A stretch of 35,874 bases of DNA. It comes from a virus. Position numbers and translations under genes: made by a program. Under the pieces are notes generated by a model. The model was not told where the DNA came from, ran no database searches, and saw only the letters and a program-made list of their open reading frames with translations. The stretch is from positions 1-35,874 of IMG/VR virus record IMGVR_UViG_3300046332_000143. One strand, written 5' to 3'. Below, in pieces: positions 17,599 through 35,874 of this stretch. Numbering within the stretch: the first letter of the stretch is position 1; each line of letters opens with the position of its first letter.

Positions 17599-17627
17599 TC
17601 TTGTAAAAAGATTTGATCACATATACT
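17599..17627 (+). promoter_or_regulatory. Promoter-like block of cassette 2
   Basis: TCTTGT (17599-17604), a 17-nt spacer, then TATACT (17622-17627), followed by TCATTTGAGATATTGCTAG. It aligns closely with the blocks at 101 and 30767. It starts directly after the SbcC-like gene's stop. Confidence 0.65.
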
Positions 17628-17655
17628 TCATTTGAGATATTGCTAGTATGTTTAA

Positions 17656-17671
17656 TCCATGTATTATTGGA
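17656..17671 (+). promoter_or_regulatory. Conserved leader hairpin, cassette 2
   Basis: TCCA (17656-17659) can pair with TGGA (17668-17671) around TGTATTAT. The element has the same length and place as those at 156 and 30821, with a compensating change at the outer pair relative to cassette 1. A strong AAGGAG follows at 17683. Confidence 0.5.
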
Positions 17672-17696
17672 ACTTACTAGCTAAGGAGATATTTAA

Positions 17697-18050: not shown

Positions 18051-18094
18051 AAAAATAACACCAGCCCTAACAAGGCCGGTGTTATTTTTTTTTT
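18051..18094 (+). terminator. Bidirectional terminator ending cassette 2
   Basis: AAAAATAACACCAGCC pairs with GGCCGGTGTTATTTTT, with one mismatch, around the loop CTAACAA, followed by T. It separates the plus-strand cassette from the minus-strand gene that ends at 18098. Confidence 0.9.
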
Positions 18095-22373: not shown

Positions 22374-22411
22374 TAAGATACCATACAGCCCGACGGCTGT
22401 ATGGTATCTTA
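22374..22411. terminator. 17-bp perfect hairpin between convergent genes
   Basis: TAAGATACCATACAGCC pairs with GGCTGTATGGTATCTTA around CGAC. It is the longest perfect stem in the window and lies between gene ends at 22354 (plus) and 22419 (minus). There is no long U-tract on either side. Confidence 0.75.
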
Positions 22412-23378: not shown

Positions 23379-24788
23379 ATGATTAAACAAGATTTTCAAC
23401 CGGCTCCTAGTGTAAAGATTATGCTGAACATCGGTGCATGTTTAGATATACCTACAGGTTTCTATGTAAAAGGTAAACATGGAGAAAGTATTCTTCTAGG
23501 TGGATTAGGTGCTCTGACTGGGATTACCGGCCGTGGTAACATGTTTAAATCCACAATCATGCATTACATGATGCTATCAGCTGCTGATAGGTTGTTGTCT
23601 ACAGCAGATACTTCTATGTCTACGTATGACACGGAAATTAATATCCATGAAGAACGTCTGCGTAGTCTGACATCTCAATTTGAATCTTTTAAAGATAAAG
23701 ATATCATAGGTGACGGAACCTGGCTAATCACAGACCGTACTGTATATCATGGTAATGCTTGGTATGAGAAACTTAAGTCTTATCTAAAAGAACAAAAGAA
23801 ACCTGGTGACAAAGACATCATGTATGAAACTCCATTTCTAGAACGGGATGGTAAGACTCTGATGCGCACTATCGTACCCACATTTTCTGAAGTAGATAGT
23901 TTTAGTCGTTTTGAAACTGAAGATGTGGCAAGAATGCAGGATGAAAATGAGTTAGGTGATTCTGGCGGCAATACTATCCATATGCGTCAAGGTTTGGCTA
24001 AGATGCGTTTCCTTATGGAGATACCTGGCTTGTCTGGAACACACAATCATTTTTTATTGTTGTCAGCTCACTTAGGTCAAGATACAGCTATAGCTTCTGG
24101 ACCATATGCAGCCCCACCACCTAAGAAACTTCAACATATGAAGATGGGTGAAAAGATTAAAGGTGTTACAGATCAATTCTTTTTCTTGACTAATAATTTC
24201 TGGATGGCCAATGGTGTGTCTCCTATGGTTAATCAAGGAACTAAAGGACCTGAATACCCTAAATCTAGTGACAATAACGCAGCTGGTGATGTAGACCTTA
24301 ATATGGTCAGTTTAAAGCAGCTAAGATCTAAATCAGGACCATCTGGAAACACCATAGAAGTTATTGTAAGTCAGACAGAAGGCGTGCTTCCCGGCATGAC
24401 TGAATTTCACTACATTAAAGAATCGGGTCGTTTTGGTTTAAATGGATCTTTACAGAATTATGCTTTAGACCTCTATCCAGACTGTAAATTATCTAGAACT
24501 ACCGTGCGTGGTAAACTAGATAAAGACGCTAAGCTTCGTAGAGCTATGAACATTACATCTGAGATGTGTCAGATCCAAGAATACTTTAAAGCACAATCAG
24601 AACTGTTTTGCACACCAGCAGAACTCTATAAAGATCTGAAAGAGCTAGGGTATGATTGGGATATTATTCTATCTCAAACACGCGGATGGTGGACTTTAAA
24701 CAATGAGACTCATCCTCTTAAGTTTCTTAGTACCATGGATCTGCTTCGTATGCGTAAGGGTGAATACAAACCTTATTGGCTAAAATAA
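23379..24788 (+). CDS. RecA-fold ATPase (UvsX/DnaB-like)
   Basis: A 469-residue ATPase with a P-loop GITGRGNMFKST (about 48-59), a YDTE element (83-86) like the YDSE of UvsX-type recombinases, a hydrophobic strand HFLLLSAHLGQD resembling the RecA/DnaB motif after Walker B, and a segment LRSKSGPSGNTIEV that may be the loop region. It is either a strand-exchange recombinase working with the RuvC- and SbcC-like proteins, or a replicative-helicase-type motor. The YDTE element favours the first; the size and N-terminal extension leave the second open. AAGGAA precedes the ATG. Confidence 0.7.
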   Translation: MIKQDFQPAPSVKIMLNIGACLDIPTGFYVKGKHGESILLGGLGALTGITGRGNMFKSTIMHYMMLSAADRLLSTADTSMSTYDTEINIHEERLRSLTSQFESFKDKDIIGDGTWLITDRTVYHGNAWYEKLKSYLKEQKKPGDKDIMYETPFLERDGKTLMRTIVPTFSEVDSFSRFETEDVARMQDENELGDSGGNTIHMRQGLAKMRFLMEIPGLSGTHNHFLLLSAHLGQDTAIASGPYAAPPPKKLQHMKMGEKIKGVTDQFFFLTNNFWMANGVSPMVNQGTKGPEYPKSSDNNAAGDVDLNMVSLKQLRSKSGPSGNTIEVIVSQTEGVLPGMTEFHYIKESGRFGLNGSLQNYALDLYPDCKLSRTTVRGKLDKDAKLRRAMNITSEMCQIQEYFKAQSELFCTPAELYKDLKELGYDWDIILSQTRGWWTLNNETHPLKFLSTMDLLRMRKGEYKPYWLK

Positions 24789-24793
24789 CACAG

Positions 24794-24819
24794 CATGAGT
24801 AGCCATTAGGCTACTCATG
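24794..24819 (+). terminator. Intergenic hairpin after the RecA-fold ATPase gene
   Basis: CATGAGTAGCC pairs over 11 bp with GGCTACTCATG around ATTA. There is no U-tract. The right arm contains an ATG (24817) that opens a longer reading of the next gene but is unlikely to be used because it would be locked in the stem. Confidence 0.6.
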
Positions 24820-24849
24820 TTTCCAATTGCTGAAATAAATAAAACTATC

Positions 24850-25179
24850 ATGAGTCAAAATTACTTTAAACCACGAGAACAAGGTGAAGTCAACCTTGTA
24901 GCAGAAGTCCGTCAAATTCTTTTGGATCATGGCTTTGGACAAAAGATTGAAATCTACGATACAAACCGTATGGTGGCTGATGCAGCAGACAAATGTTCTG
25001 CCGTGCAACGTTTTCAATTGAATCGTTATTTCTCTATGCAACTTATCATGGCAGCTAGAGATTCTACAGAAGAACGTTTCTGTCTTATTCCTAACGGAGA
25101 AGTAGCAGATTGGCTAGCTTTGTTTAAAAGCAAGATCGTACCTTTTATGATCGAAGCTGATTTACCACGTCCTTTTTAA
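24850..25179 (+). CDS. Unknown small protein
   Basis: A 109-residue soluble protein with mixed helix and strand and no known motif. ATG 24850 is preferred over ATG 24817, which lies inside the preceding hairpin; neither has a strong ribosome binding site. It is followed after 11 bases by the beta-subunit-like gene and probably forms an operon with the next two genes, so a link to transcription is possible but unsupported by any motif. Confidence 0.65.
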   Translation: MSQNYFKPREQGEVNLVAEVRQILLDHGFGQKIEIYDTNRMVADAADKCSAVQRFQLNRYFSMQLIMAARDSTEERFCLIPNGEVADWLALFKSKIVPFMIEADLPRPF

Positions 25180-25190
25180 AGAGGTTTAGG

Positions 25191-25856
25191 ATGACCAAAC
25201 GTAAAGAAGCAGAAGCAGTCATAGTAACTTACATGGAAAAGATAGCTTCTAAATCAGGTAATGCTGAGATCTATCAATCTGTGTTTAGTAAAATGAATGA
25301 TAAGCAGTTTGATGAGTTCATGAAGAACTTAGAATCAGGTAAAGCTTTCTTGGTTATCCAGCTGCCTAACTTTAAACACACGGGTGTTACTTTAGAAAAG
25401 AATCTAGCTATAGCTGATGAGTTAGACCATGAGTTCTTTCAAAGACTTTGGATAACTAATAAGAAAGACACTCCTGACCACATGATCCCTGTGGAATGTT
25501 TAGTTATGGACCTGCCTGTTCGTAGAGCTTCACAGCTTTTGATCAAGAAGATATCTGTACCTGATGATAGTAGAACTATAGATGCTCTCACTGGACAACC
25601 CACAGGTGAATCAAAAGGTGCTAAGCTTTCCTATCCGGAACTTCAAATCTGCGCTGCTATGGGTTTAGATAACTCCATGGTAGAACTTATGAAGTATCGC
25701 GGTGGTGATAATAAAGGTTTAATAGCCTTTAACTCTATGCTTAGCAGATATGGTCGAGTCAATCTTAAAAGTGTAGAACCTTATGCCTCTGGTGTAGAGT
25801 CTACTAAAAGTTTAAAAACATTCTTAACATCTATGATGTTGAAAAGTACTCTATAA
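25191..25856 (+). CDS. Protein resembling the C-terminus of an RNA polymerase beta subunit
   Basis: A 221-residue protein. From about residue 100 it follows the order of features at the C-terminal end of bacterial and giant-phage beta subunits: a hydrophobic MIPVECLVMDLPVRR strand, KKISVPDDSR, LTGQPTGESKGAKLS where beta has a QQPLGG element, YPELQICAAMGL in place of the GEMEVWAL helix, ELMKYRGGDN in place of the EMLTVKSDD turn, and a final helix STKSLKTFLTSMML. It could be one piece of a split phage multisubunit RNA polymerase, or a free remnant. GAGG precedes ATG 25191, and its stop overlaps the next start by one base. The alignment was made by eye from memory. Confidence 0.5.
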   Translation: MTKRKEAEAVIVTYMEKIASKSGNAEIYQSVFSKMNDKQFDEFMKNLESGKAFLVIQLPNFKHTGVTLEKNLAIADELDHEFFQRLWITNKKDTPDHMIPVECLVMDLPVRRASQLLIKKISVPDDSRTIDALTGQPTGESKGAKLSYPELQICAAMGLDNSMVELMKYRGGDNKGLIAFNSMLSRYGRVNLKSVEPYASGVESTKSLKTFLTSMMLKSTL

Positions 25857-26548
25857 TGGATGTAATCCCTAAACAAACTATTTTTGTAGAACTAGATGCC
25901 TTGTTAGATACCAGAGCAGCTTGTATAGCTACTTTTGGTAAAGAGGCTGTAGAACAACATATCACAGCTAGTTACTATACGCGTTTAACAGATGCTTTTA
26001 GTTTACCTGGTTATGTTGATAAGTTTAGATCTAGGGATAAAGAGTTACTAAAAGATTCTATGATCACTCCTGTTTTTAACATGATCGTAGAGTTTGTCTC
26101 AGTTACTTTAAAAAACAATATTAATTCTCCACAGGTGTATAAGCCTTGTGTGATTGTAAATACATATCCCTACATTCTATCAGATGCTGAATGTTCTAAG
26201 ATTGTAAACATACTTGTGCATAAGACTCAAGGAGAAGCTGATATCAATATAGTCACTATGGACTATGATGAATTGACTCCTTCTTATGTCAGACAAAATG
26301 TTTCTTTGATGGTTATGTACCATGCTATAGATTGGCTGGAAGCACAAGCTGATGCAGGTAGGTTTACCACACGAGCCTGTCCTGATGTCAGTATGTTGTG
26401 TCCAGCGTTAGGCAGAGGGTCTAAACCTCTGATAGATAAAGATCCATTTGAAGTAATGGAAACTGTATCTGCTCCTATTATAGGGTTAAAGTTTTTACCC
26501 ATAGAATCTTTTTGCATGATTTACAATCCGTTCAAACAGCCGAAATAG
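25856..26548 (+). CDS. Unknown protein coupled to the beta-like gene
   Basis: A 230-residue protein starting in a TAATG overlap with the preceding gene, so the two are co-translated. It opens with a strand IFVELDALLDTR that superficially resembles a HAD motif I but lacks DxD. A middle segment, PCVIVNTYPYILSDAECSKIVNIL, followed by EADINIVTMDYDELTPSYVRQNV, looks like a Rossmann-type alternation. I associate this kind of protein with giant phages but know no function. A perfect hairpin follows the stop. Confidence 0.7.
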   Translation: MDVIPKQTIFVELDALLDTRAACIATFGKEAVEQHITASYYTRLTDAFSLPGYVDKFRSRDKELLKDSMITPVFNMIVEFVSVTLKNNINSPQVYKPCVIVNTYPYILSDAECSKIVNILVHKTQGEADINIVTMDYDELTPSYVRQNVSLMVMYHAIDWLEAQADAGRFTTRACPDVSMLCPALGRGSKPLIDKDPFEVMETVSAPIIGLKFLPIESFCMIYNPFKQPK

Positions 26549-26979: not shown

Positions 26980-27011
26980 TACAGCTCCTTTCTTTATTTA
27001 GTTAGGTAATA

Positions 27012-27017
27012 TATACT
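27012..27017 (+). promoter_or_regulatory. Possible promoter motif before the 27056 operon
   Basis: AATATATACTTTAG matches the core of the three cassette blocks (YATACTTYA), in the gap between divergent genes and 39 bases before the first start codon. The upstream YCTTGT and the leader hairpin are absent, so the match is partial. Confidence 0.35.
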
Positions 27018-27055
27018 TTAGCTGTACACTGTAAGCTTTTCTTTATGGGGTTTAA

Positions 27056-30766: not shown

Positions 30767-30795
30767 CCTTGTTGAATATTTGAACCACATATACT
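30767..30795 (+). promoter_or_regulatory. Promoter-like block of cassette 3
   Basis: CCTTGT (30767-30772), a 17-nt spacer, then TATACT (30790-30795), followed by TTATCTGAGTTATC. It is the third copy of the block seen at 101 and 17599. Confidence 0.65.
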
Positions 30796-30820
30796 TTATC
30801 TGAGTTATCAACTAGTTTAA

Positions 30821-30836
30821 TCCACTTACCGGTGGA
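30821..30836 (+). promoter_or_regulatory. Conserved leader hairpin, cassette 3
   Basis: TCCAC (30821-30825) can pair with GTGGA (30832-30836). The loop sequence differs from the other two copies but the 16-nt span and the stem are kept. TAGGAG follows before ATG 30859. Confidence 0.5.
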
Positions 30837-30858
30837 ACTATGTATATAGGAGACACTC

Positions 30859-31764
30859 ATGAAAAACGGACTTATTATACGGTCAAATGGAATCAAAACT
30901 TGGTACGTTAATGATTTAAAGCACCGTGAGGACGGACCTGCTGAAGAATGGCCTAACGGTGATAAACATTGGTATCAGCATGGTAAAAAGTATCGCGCAG
31001 ATGGACCGGCTATGGAAAATGCAAACGGACATAAAGTCTGGTATGTTAACGGACTTATTCACAAAGAAGATGGACCGGCCCTTATACTTGCAGACGGTAG
31101 AATGTCTTGGTATAAAAATGGTGTGCGTCATAAAGAAGACGGCCCTGCTACTATCTTTCCCAATGGTGATAAACATTGGTATAAAGATGGAAAGAAACAC
31201 CGTGAGGACGGACCCGCTGTTGAACGTGCAGATGGTTACAAAGAATGGTTTATTAATGGTAAATTACATCGTGCGGATGGACCGGCTGTTGATTACTCTG
31301 ATCGTGCAAAGTTTTGGTTTATCAACGGACAGCGTCATCGTGAGGACGGACCTGCTGTGGAACAAACAGATGGTCGTATAGCTTGGTATTTTAATAACCA
31401 GCGGCATCGGTTAGGCGGACCAGCTTTACAACGCGCTAACGGAGATCAGCTCTGGTATGTACATGGTAAGCTGCATCGGGAAGACGGACCTGCTGTAATA
31501 TACGCCGACGGTAGCAGTGAATGGTATATTGACGGTGTTAAACAACCAACACCATCGATATACTATGCTTTTGGTCATAAAGCTTGGTTTCTTAACGATA
31601 AGTATCATCGAGAAGACGGTCCGGCTATAGAGCAACCTAATGGTTACAAAGCCTGATATAAAAATGGCGTATTGCATAGGTTGGGCGGACCAGCAGTCAT
31701 AGAAGCGGACGGAACTGAAAATTGGTTTCATGACGGTAAAAAAATAGTAACTCGTCCAGAGTAG
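30859..31764 (+). pseudogene. MORN-like 23-residue repeat protein interrupted by TGA
   Basis: The reading frame encodes about twelve tandem 23-residue units of the form WYxNGxxHREDGPAxxxxDGxxx, one (unit 10) shortened to 21 residues. The intact part is 265 residues and stops at TGA 31654-31656. That TGA stands exactly where every other unit has the tryptophan codon TGG, and the repeat pattern continues in frame for 36 more codons (YKNGVLHRLGGPA and on) to TAG 31762. A single G-to-A change therefore truncated the gene, or the stop is read through. Such repeats usually form beta-rich scaffolds for protein or membrane contact. The ATG follows TAGGAG. The product is probably still made in shortened form. 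Confidence 0.8.
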
Positions 31765-31834: not shown

Positions 31835-31877
31835 AAAATACTCCCAAGCCCTAACAAGGCCTGGGAGTATTTTTTTT
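31833..31877 (+). terminator. Bidirectional terminator ending cassette 3
   Basis: AAAAAATACTCCCAAGCC pairs with GGCCTGGGAGTATTTTTT (one mismatch) around CTAACAA, followed by T. The minus strand also has a U-tract, serving the virion gene that ends at 31878. Confidence 0.9.
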
Positions 31878-34058
31878 CTATTGATTTCCTGAACTGTTAG
31901 TAGCTCCAGCTACCACGGAAGAATTAGCAACAACATTTTCAAGTACATTGCCTATCAATGTCCAAGATAAAGCTCCAGTTGTCATAGTGTCGTGAGTTAT
32001 AGACGCCCATTCAGCAGGTGATGTTATTCTATTACCGATCAAAGCTAATTTAGCCAATCTTATCTTAGCCTTAGGCATAGCAAAGAATTGACTATAAAGA
32101 TCCTGACCAGCTAATACAGCTAAATAATCAGTTAAGATATTATCATCATCTAAAGTCATTTCTACTTTATTACCAAACATCCCAGATGTAGTTAAAGGCA
32201 TGTGCATTATAGAAGACAAATCCACAATGTTAAAACTTACATCTAAAGCTAAGGCATTTCCTTTTGTATTAAAAGGAAGATTAGAAGTACCACGAGTTAT
32301 AGATAAAGATTCCATAATGCCTAGCTTGATTTGACATCTACCTCTGTCATACAGCTGACACAGCATAGGACTGCCGTAAGCAGATCTACCAGCAGCCATA
32401 GGCAAGGCACCAGCTAACAGCATACACAAAGGTATGTAGATATTCTGCATCTGCGACATTACGTTACCATACGGACTTATCAATTTGATTTTATAAGATC
32501 CACCTGGTAGCTTAGCATTTGAATTTTGCCAATGTTTAGGGATGTCTATATATCCAGCACTAGCTAAACCTTGTAAGAAATCAGACATGCCAAATGTAAC
32601 ACCACTAATAGCACCCATAGCTAAGTCTGTAGCAGCACCCATCACAGATCCAACAGCATTACTGAGGAAACCATCTGTTAACTTTCCATCAGCTAAAGAA
32701 AATCTGATATCTCTAATTTGAGAAGCAGTTCCATTTAGCTTTTGCGATAGTTCAGACTCAGTAGTTACGTTAGAGAAAGATTCAGACATAGAACCAGTAC
32801 TATCTACTTTAAAGATAGCAAATTGAGAACCTTGTCTAAACTCAGCATCGAAGTATTCTGCAAACTTAGCATTTTTCTCTTCTACTTGCTGACCTGTTGT
32901 TTCATCTATACGTGGATCTAGTTCAGTTTGTCTGCTAGTTAACACTGTTGTATTTTGCTGTGCGGAGTTCTTAGAACCGGATGACTCACTTGAATAATAG
33001 CTAGCAGCTTTTAATTTACTGTTTACCCAATTAAATAAATTAGTAACAGCTCCTGCATTAACCATATCAGTTTTGAACGTATCGTTTCTTTTCATTAGGT
33101 AACCATAAAAAGAATCATAATCATCCGTTTGAGCTTTTTCATATTCTGCTTCAAAAACTCTATTAGCAGTTCTCTGAGCTTTAGACGCTATAGCAAATAC
33201 GTCGATATAGTTAGCATCGTCTTCTGTAAGACCTGTAAAGAGATCAGGCATCAGACTGCGTATTTCTCTTAGATAATCTTGATCTAGAACAAAAGGTTGT
33301 CCGCCTAAGCGTTGATTAGAATCTTGTTTATCTCTGAGGATAGAAGGCATGATACCTCTATTGATAGCTACGCTATTTACAAGAATATTCACTGCTGACC
33401 AATACATGTGCATGGTAGGCTTAAGTGTGTAAAATTTAGTACTAGGTCTGCCAAATACAGCAGTAGTTACTTTACCTAAAAACACAGCTAGGGCGATCGG
33501 TGGGAATATGCTAGCACCAACAAACGTACCGGCGGCATCACCTAGGTTATAAAAGAAACCTAAACCCCTACCTGTCTTAGCTAACGTAGTCATGTTAGCA
33601 TCGTAAGCTCGAGTAAAAAAGTTTAACAATCCATTAAACTGAGGAACCCCAAATCTTAAAAAGATAGTTTGGCTAGGGTCATCTATGGCTTCTGAGTAGT
33701 ATCTACCCATGCCACAGTTTCTAATAGAACCCACAGTAGGTTGCCTGAACACGCTGATATCACGACCTTGTCTTATATCTGCATAAGGAGTAAAGCCAGG
33801 CCTGGCATTTATACCTATGTTATTACCTAGTTTAGTACTTGTATATTTAGCTGATGCTGAGGTATAATATCTATTAGCTCTATCAGCTTTAGCATAAAAA
33901 CCTTGAAAAGCAGAATCAGATACCATAAAGGATTGAGAGACCCACGATTCATCTGGTATAGCAGATAGCTCATCATTAACTGTTTGCTCTGTTCTGAAAA
34001 TACTTGTTCCGTCTTTATCTACTATTATGCTAGGATCTATGTTAACATTCTTTGCCAC
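31878..34058 (-). CDS. Large virion protein, probable baseplate or tail component
   Basis: A 726-residue protein starting at GTG 34058, preceded by AAGG. The N-terminal half is rich in S, T, N and aromatic residues; a hydrophobic stretch around 170-200 (GTFVGASIFPPIALAVFLG) and small-residue helices around 470-500 are present. The C-terminal 200 residues include YIPLCMLLAGALPMAAGRSA, then RGRCQIKLGIMESLSITRGT and ALALDVSFNIVDLSSIMHMPL, a beta-rich pattern that brings to mind tail-tube or baseplate-hub domains. It may interact with the lysin encoded just upstream. The exact role is unknown. Confidence 0.68.
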   Translation of the reverse strand: MAKNVNIDPSIIVDKDGTSIFRTEQTVNDELSAIPDESWVSQSFMVSDSAFQGFYAKADRANRYYTSASAKYTSTKLGNNIGINARPGFTPYADIRQGRDISVFRQPTVGSIRNCGMGRYYSEAIDDPSQTIFLRFGVPQFNGLLNFFTRAYDANMTTLAKTGRGLGFFYNLGDAAGTFVGASIFPPIALAVFLGKVTTAVFGRPSTKFYTLKPTMHMYWSAVNILVNSVAINRGIMPSILRDKQDSNQRLGGQPFVLDQDYLREIRSLMPDLFTGLTEDDANYIDVFAIASKAQRTANRVFEAEYEKAQTDDYDSFYGYLMKRNDTFKTDMVNAGAVTNLFNWVNSKLKAASYYSSESSGSKNSAQQNTTVLTSRQTELDPRIDETTGQQVEEKNAKFAEYFDAEFRQGSQFAIFKVDSTGSMSESFSNVTTESELSQKLNGTASQIRDIRFSLADGKLTDGFLSNAVGSVMGAATDLAMGAISGVTFGMSDFLQGLASAGYIDIPKHWQNSNAKLPGGSYKIKLISPYGNVMSQMQNIYIPLCMLLAGALPMAAGRSAYGSPMLCQLYDRGRCQIKLGIMESLSITRGTSNLPFNTKGNALALDVSFNIVDLSSIMHMPLTTSGMFGNKVEMTLDDDNILTDYLAVLAGQDLYSQFFAMPKAKIRLAKLALIGNRITSPAEWASITHDTMTTGALSWTLIGNVLENVVANSSVVAGATNSSGNQ

Positions 34059-34115: not shown

Positions 34116-35874
34116 TTAACTAGTTCTTCTTCTAAGGTCTAGGGCTGGATTAGGTAAACTTTCTTTTTTAGAAGCGTTAGGCATGCCATATGCTGGCGCA
34201 TCTACTTCAGATTTAGATTTATCACCAGTCCCAGATTTATTAGATATAAGTCCATGTATTTTACTAAGAACATCCAACATTTGTTTTTGAACATTCAAAG
34301 ACTCACCTAGATTATTATTCACAGTATTAAGATCCATATTGGTATTTTTACCAATGTCTACAACAGGTTGTGAAGTTGCTTGTAGATCAGGAGCTCTTTG
34401 TAAATCTGCAAAAGATTTTTTCTTAGGTACGTCTTCTTTATAGGCAACAGGTTGTATGTTGTTATCAGAACCGCCAGGTAAACTGACAGGTACATTTCCA
34501 CTAGATGGAGTAGTTGTTACATTTTTACTATTGCTAGCAAGCATAGTTTTAACCTTACCACCAGCAGTTTGTACTTTCTTTTTAAATAGTTCGCGGATCT
34601 CCGCTATAGTTCTAGGTCTACGACCGTCATAGAAGATTTCTTTATTAGCAGAAGCTGCTTTAGGAAACATCTGTGACCCAGGTACGTTATCGTTAGCTGT
34701 CAGAAACTTAGTAGCTCCTTGAGCTCCTAGTACATGTGCTAGATATAGATCTAAATCATCAGGATTGTCTTTAACCTTACTCAGTATGTTCATACTGTTT
34801 TTGGTGTATTCAGCGGCTAATAAACTACTAGCTACTGGATCCATGGGACTAGCATCTGATGCAAGATTATGTTTTTTACCAAACTTCTGCAATTGTTCTT
34901 GCCAAGTATCTTTGGTAAATTGAAACAAACCTGATGCTGAGGATGTTCCGCTTCTAGCATTAGGATTCATGCTTGATTCTAATGTAGCAAAAGTTTTTAA
35001 CAAGTTAGGATCTATTCCTACCTTTGCAGCTGCCTTTGCTATAATACTACCTATATCACCAGTTGCATTAGTACCGACACCAGTAACTTTACCATCTTCA
35101 CTAGAGGTTATGTTACCCATGGCATCAGTATTTACATTCTTAGTGAGTATTTCTGATGTAGGTGCTTTTGCTGCTTTGATGGATCTTTCATTAACAGCAG
35201 TAGAACTACCGCCTGTAAAATTACCCATAGCGTCATAAGTACTACCAGCATCTGTACCTGTGCTATAATTGTCAGTATATTTAGTAGGTTTAGGAACAGC
35301 CATAGCTTTACTAGCTAAATCTACATCATTCTTACTGAGTTGATTATTAATAGTACCGCTAGCTGTTGCATCTAAAAGAGCTTTGGCCATGGTATAATCT
35401 CTGCCTTTGATACTCTTAGAATCCAAAGTGCCTAAACCACCACCACCTCTGCCTAATCCATACTCTATCAGTTTAGCTGCTGTGTTTGGATTATCTTTAG
35501 ATTCTTGCAAAGACAACTGAACACCGGCTGGTTCAAAATGCCAAGGTTCTGATCCAACAGGACGTGTAAAGCCATATTTTTTCATCAGACCCATTTTATC
35601 TAGTTCGCCTAAGACACCTCTATCAGAGTCAAGAGCTAAACCAAATTCATGCATTGAGCTTCCAGGGGGAGCAGACTTGTTAGGATATTTTTTATGTATA
35701 GCAGCTTGTTGTTCAAAAGAACGGTGGCCGTCGTTAAGAGGAATAGTCTTACCTGTTAACTCACCATATTCTTGAGCCATAGCTAAAAGATTCTTACGCA
35801 CTAACGGATGGATGTTTTGAATATCCACACCAGCTTTAAGACTTAGATATTGAGCACCTGAACTACCATCACGC
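34116..35874 (-). CDS. Bifunctional M15 peptidase / lytic transglycosylase, tail-associated (5' end outside window)
   Basis: At least 570 residues. The N-terminal domain has the M15 zinc peptidase ligands: SSMHEFGLALDSD (H60, D67 counted from GTG 35828) and EPWHFEP (H97). A lytic-transglycosylase (SLT-like) domain follows at about 255-390, with LESSMNPNA carrying the catalytic glutamate, SASGLFQFTKDTW, and YLAHVLGAQGATKF. Low-complexity linkers surround it. Together the domains cut peptide cross-links and glycan strands of the cell wall, as expected of a virion enzyme that opens the wall during DNA injection. The frame remains open upstream of GTG 35828 to the window edge (GSSGAQYLSLKAG before VDIQNIHP), so the real start is probably beyond position 35874. 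Confidence 0.85.
   Translation of the reverse strand, partial: RDGSSGAQYLSLKAGVDIQNIHPLVRKNLLAMAQEYGELTGKTIPLNDGHRSFEQQAAIHKKYPNKSAPPGSSMHEFGLALDSDRGVLGELDKMGLMKKYGFTRPVGSEPWHFEPAGVQLSLQESKDNPNTAAKLIEYGLGRGGGGLGTLDSKSIKGRDYTMAKALLDATASGTINNQLSKNDVDLASKAMAVPKPTKYTDNYSTGTDAGSTYDAMGNFTGGSSTAVNERSIKAAKAPTSEILTKNVNTDAMGNITSSEDGKVTGVGTNATGDIGSIIAKAAAKVGIDPNLLKTFATLESSMNPNARSGTSSASGLFQFTKDTWQEQLQKFGKKHNLASDASPMDPVASSLLAAEYTKNSMNILSKVKDNPDDLDLYLAHVLGAQGATKFLTANDNVPGSQMFPKAASANKEIFYDGRRPRTIAEIRELFKKKVQTAGGKVKTMLASNSKNVTTTPSSGNVPVSLPGGSDNNIQPVAYKEDVPKKKSFADLQRAPDLQATSQPVVDIGKNTNMDLNTVNNNLGESLNVQKQMLDVLSKIHGLISNKSGTGDKSKSEVDAPAYGMPNASKKESLPNPALDLRRRTS

Follow-up and report, generated by a model that had tools for sequence, protein, structure and literature searches.

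A standard vRNAP betaC subunit is almost certainly encoded at 25191-25856 of a phiKZ-type giant phage contig

The betaC gene and its neighbors

The window, meaning the whole stretch of DNA analyzed here (35,874 nucleotides, positions 1 to 35,874 of IMG/VR virus record IMGVR_UViG_3300046332_000143), carries at 25191-25856 of the + strand a gene with an ATG start and a TAA stop. Its 221-residue product, betaC, is the orthologue of phiKZ gp149 and of SPN3US gp218. Both the reading frame and the order of its motifs are exactly as described in the initial annotation: QPTGE (residues 136-140), PELQ (149-152), GL (158-159), RGGD (170-173), and STKSLKTFLTSMML (203-216). The spacer ahead of the ATG (25179..25190, + strand) reads TTTTTAAAGAGGTTTAGGATG, and its purine-rich AGAGG / TTAGG stretch is likely the ribosome-binding site of betaC. 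The two nearest relatives encode proteins with 88% and 80% amino acid identity to betaC. Because non-synonymous divergence from these relatives (pN 0.078 and 0.139) lies far below synonymous divergence (pS 0.62 and 0.70), betaC is a real gene under strong purifying selection rather than a chance frame; dN/dS is about 0.06-0.08, with dS near saturation.

The betaC gene begins 12 bases past the end of a co-directional gene of unknown function (24817..25179, + strand), which is syntenic with FLC9 gp54 (tblastn E 5.6e-11). The gene that follows (25856..26548, + strand; phrog_3328, function unknown, syntenic with FLC9 gp49) begins inside the betaC stop in a TAATG overlap, and perhaps the two are translationally coupled. 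The close upstream gene and the overlap with the next start thus place betaC within a co-directional gene run. Farther upstream, a UvsX-like recombinase gene (23379..24788, + strand; phrog_97, E 2e-30) is syntenic with phiKZ gp152 and FLC9 gp57; by tblastn its product is 54.6% identical to that of FLC9 and 40.8% identical to that of phiKZ. At the end of the window, a gene on the - strand (34116..35873), truncated by the window edge, encodes a homologue of the phiKZ gp181-type tail-associated lytic protein (phrog_3201, E 1e-45; phrog_4067, E 2.8e-40).

The neighborhood of betaC is conserved in FLC9 and phiKZ. The order of an RNase H-like gene, the uvsX-like gene, betaC, and further genes is common to the window and FLC9, and the phiKZ order agrees with the window as far as betaC. 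As in the window, phiKZ gp149 lies downstream of the uvsX-like gene (gp152), but phiKZ carries two genes between them, gp150 and gp151, at the place of the single window gene 24817..25179. Between two convergent genes, positions 22374-22411 of the window form a perfectly paired 17-bp stem closed by a 4-base loop, likely a bidirectional terminator. Scanning the window for Rfam families and tRNAs yielded nothing.

Intergenic blocks and terminators

An intergenic block of about 90 bp is present in three copies (102-191, 17600-17691, and 30768-30839), and there is a shorter piece at 26999-27024. The three copies are about 72-88% alike, each has a ribosome-binding-site-like AGGAGA near its end, and each precedes a small accessory gene. 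They may be promoters or promoter/leader blocks. The copies have in common a core, ATATACTTYA, with one mismatch in the first copy. Exact matches to this core number 3 in the window versus 0 for the reversed pattern. ATATACTTYA was nevertheless rejected as a consensus for early promoters in general, since each larger relative has only 1-4 exact matches and since, with one mismatch allowed, the core does not occur above chance.

Four related intrinsic terminators (53-96, 955-998, 18051-18094, and 31835-31878) bound accessory-gene cassettes, and three of the four have the same CCCTAACAAGGC loop region. One cassette contains a gene (30859-31656, + strand) for a protein of about eleven 23-residue repeats (HREDGPAVE..ADG.K.WY.NG); this repeat protein is MORN-like and matches DUF6745 with an E value of 4e-8.

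The initial annotation had proposed that a free beta tail would explain the promoter-like blocks, an idea that finds no support here. The blocks are kilobases away from betaC, and nothing links them to it. The octamer TATATTAC, which we take to be the phiKZ early-promoter sequence, is not enriched in the window, with 42 matches at no more than one mismatch versus 67 expected.

Relatives of betaC among giant phages

Residues 2-221 of betaC match PHROG 3233, 'RNA polymerase beta subunit', with an E value of 1.8e-71. A tblastn search finds homologues in 281 phage records, 274 of them with at least 80% query coverage. Burkholderia phage FLC9 gives the best match among named phages (47.7% identity). 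FLC9 shares synteny with the window across much of its extent, and its betaC counterpart, gp52, differs in annotation, being called a hypothetical protein only. Phage RAY gp154, another homologue, bears the annotation 'putative vRNAP beta subunit 2', and in many records the homologues are called just 'virion structural protein'.

betaC belongs to the phiKZ gp149 family by full-length homology. The phiKZ protein (224 residues) resembles it in length and in the split of beta, and by tblastn the two are 35.4% identical. In the same family is Salmonella phage SPN3US gp218, a 222-residue vRNAP betaC (PMC5105663); its identity to betaC is about 28%, as estimated from related SPFM-group Salmonella phages. 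The protein encoded at 25191-25856 is thus almost certainly a standard, ordinary vRNAP betaC subunit of a phiKZ-type giant phage.

A second type of betaC is fused to an HD domain in Bacillus giant phages (PMC7598289). The C-terminal part of this type (AR9, PBS1, and BpSp) matches betaC residues 2-120 (phrog_23439, E 4e-6). PBS1 orf 269 (423 residues) represents the HD-domain type, whereas the window protein has no HD domain: it is 221 residues long, is homologous along its length to the free-standing betaC, and has no Pfam domain. In orf 269 itself (PBS1 locus L027, 667-1938), residues 45-136 give a weak HD match with an E value of 0.002, below the Pfam cut-off. This weak N-terminal match agrees with the published fusion.

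Similarity to bacterial RpoB

The relation of betaC to bacterial RpoB emerges only in profile comparisons. Pfam searches with the single protein and with every member of alignment A1 (21 betaC family members) return chance matches only, and a single-sequence search of the PDB finds no related solved structure. When A1 is compared by hhalign with alignment A2 (20 bacterial RpoB C-terminal segments), the two match over 178 collinear columns with a probability of 95.8%, an E value of 8e-9, and a score of 63.6, and the RpoB range aligned is residues ~1140-1324. A broader IMG/VR betaC alignment, A3, matches A2 more weakly than A1 does, with a score of 34.2 and a probability down to 39%; its controls score 17.5-18.0 for reversed alignments and 25.8 for the best of 40 column shuffles. 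In an hmmsearch of PDB sequences, E. coli RpoB (1158-1313) is the sole family under an E value of 0.01 (E 0.004); this profile search found no solved structure of a vRNAP betaC. The comparison with RpoB profiles, which had been proposed as a check, is thus significant. Applied to nine RNAP proteins, the betaC profile matches gp149 and RpoB, and gives no match to RpoC, to the phiKZ vRNAP proteins gp178, gp180, and gp80, or to the nvRNAP proteins gp71, gp73, and gp74.

The alignment divides betaC into two parts. The first (25191..25577, + strand) consists of N-terminal helices and a strand region and corresponds to RpoB ~1140-1255 by hhalign and the secondary structure of the model; here K120, invariant in A1, pairs with the lysine of RpoB 'DDKMHAR' (hhalign). 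The second (25578..25853, + strand) contains the series TGQPTG...PELQ...EL...RGGD and the clamp-base helices, and matches RpoB ~1256-1324 by hhalign and hmmsearch. Its predicted helices span residues 148-156, 160-169, 174-187, and 203-214. The AlphaFold2 model, made from the window and IMG/VR sequences, is of moderate quality (pLDDT 75.8, pTM 0.41). The best 12 Foldseek matches to it in the PDB are all bacterial-type RNAP beta chains, with E values of ~0.1 to 1.6. E. coli RpoB ~1140-1324 is thus collinear with betaC and has a similar order of secondary-structure elements, but identity is only about 16%, and betaC is a free-standing polypeptide.

Orthology aside, no single line of evidence for the relation to RpoB is overwhelming, yet all agree. 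PHROG 3233, the RpoB profile match, synteny, and the fold matches uphold the initial identification of a detached RNA polymerase beta C-terminus.

Position of the beta split

Published work indicates that vRNAP has an N-beta and a C-beta and that its beta is divided elsewhere than in nvRNAP (PMC7598289). In betaN (phiKZ gp178 and its relatives), the last 390 residues correspond to RpoB ~658-930 (95.5%), with a weak match of the tail to RpoB ~1040-1110 (E 0.012). Given where betaC aligns, betaN and betaC therefore abut between ~1110 and 1140. The RpoB double-psi barrel lysines, K1065 and K1073, precede the range aligned with betaC, which covers the region after the barrel. On these alignments, the split sits directly downstream of the double-psi barrel, and it is constant across the betaC family. 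Over 80 IMG/VR loci, the betaC reading frame is mostly ~218-250 residues, and longer readings reflect alternative upstream starts.

The initial annotation had suggested that a free beta tail would represent either a distinct split or a fragment put to a new use. However, betaC is of the usual length and has the usual split of its family (PMC5105663, PMC7598289), and given the published vRNAP arrangement and the steady betaC length across the family, the split is not new.

Partner subunits and introns in betaN

The expectation that other RNA polymerase genes would accompany betaC holds for close relatives, which encode vRNAP and nvRNAP subunits, but not for the window, itself a 35.9-kb fragment that yielded no further RNAP gene. 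In phiKZ and FLC9, the genes for beta'N and betaN adjoin the far side of the gp181-type gene. Three relatives (G001, G002, and G003) encode beta'N and betaN, and in G001 and G003 these were located just past the gp181-type gene. G001, whose betaC is 88% identical to that of the window, also encodes beta'M and an nvRNAP beta' subunit.

All three relatives have an interruption in betaN, at the codon that corresponds to residue D1072 of phiKZ gp178. At this site G001 and G003 have a group I intron (Rfam RF00028, E ~1e-20; loci L204, G001:C1:10500-22500, and L205, G003:C1:71000-82000), within which an open reading frame carries NUMOD4 and HNH motifs. Residue 1072 is also where the intron carrying phiPA3 gp210 is inserted; the endonuclease of this intron targets phiKZ gp178 (PMC11620839). 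A second gap in the G001 betaN gene, near residue 1377, contains a further group I intron (Rfam), and in both G001 and G003 a tandem pair of group I introns lies between beta'N and betaN. One could imagine that the window phage represents an undescribed phiKZ-like lineage with several betaN group I introns like those of its relatives, in which betaC is standard and vRNAP assembly depends on splicing; we regard this as rather unlikely.

Alternative assignments

Since phiKZ-like phages have genes for two sets of split beta (PMC7598289), betaC might be the C-terminal beta fragment of the nvRNAP instead of the virion enzyme. This is very improbable. The phiKZ orthologue is gp149, a virion/vRNAP subunit, and the betaC family profile finds no match to nvRNAP gp71 or gp73 (E ~1 or worse). 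In addition, the double-psi barrel, together with its lysines, belongs to the nvRNAP betaC, phiKZ gp71-73 (PMC7618050), but lies outside the range aligned with the window protein, which lacks both. A detached beta fragment could also have been repurposed, for instance into a structural head protein or a mimic acting on host RNAP, as might be suggested by the many records naming the homologues merely 'virion structural protein' and by the Bacillus phage fragment joined to an HD-type hydrolase domain (PMC7598289). However, betaC retains an RpoB-like extent and order and is under purifying selection, the rest of vRNAP is kept in close relatives, and SPN3US gp218 mutant particles lack every vRNAP subunit (PMC5694885), so that repurposing is extremely improbable. 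We give equally little credence to the idea that the RpoB resemblance is an effect of chance or composition in an unrelated phage protein. Although no cellular protein family is matched by single-sequence search, the profile-profile match is collinear, the reversed and shuffled controls fail, and sequence-profile and fold searches both point to RNAP beta.

Proposed role of betaC

The assignment of betaC as a standard vRNAP subunit suggests what it would do. Judging from its position in RpoB (residues ~1140-1324), betaC would supply the part of beta after the double-psi barrel, namely the clamp base and the segment anchoring the clamp to beta'. Its docking partners would be betaN, which is of the phiKZ gp178 type and carries the barrel, together with beta'N, beta'M, and beta'C (phiKZ gp176); the resulting assembly would be a full beta/beta' core that has neither alpha nor omega. 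The five-subunit vRNAP would then be packed into the prohead, be ejected with the DNA, and transcribe the early genes.

By analogy, the betaC of the window phage presumably acts as its orthologues do. These are present in virions (PMC5105663, PMC5694885, PMC10612078). SPN3US gp218 has been shown to be packaged in the virion and to be essential, and particles formed without it contain none of the five vRNAP subunits (PMC5694885). A betaC orthologue also copurifies with gp180, gp178, and gp80, and phiKZ gp149 co-immunoprecipitates with tagged gp180 (PMC10612078). Early genes are transcribed by vRNAP (PMC7598289).

Significance

By itself, betaC is one more sequence for a very diverged family and answers no open question. 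With it, the 36-kb contig can be assigned to the giant phages of the phiKZ type that have virion RNA polymerases. Of practical use is the family alignment, which falls right after the RpoB double-psi barrel and so locates the split between betaN and betaC.
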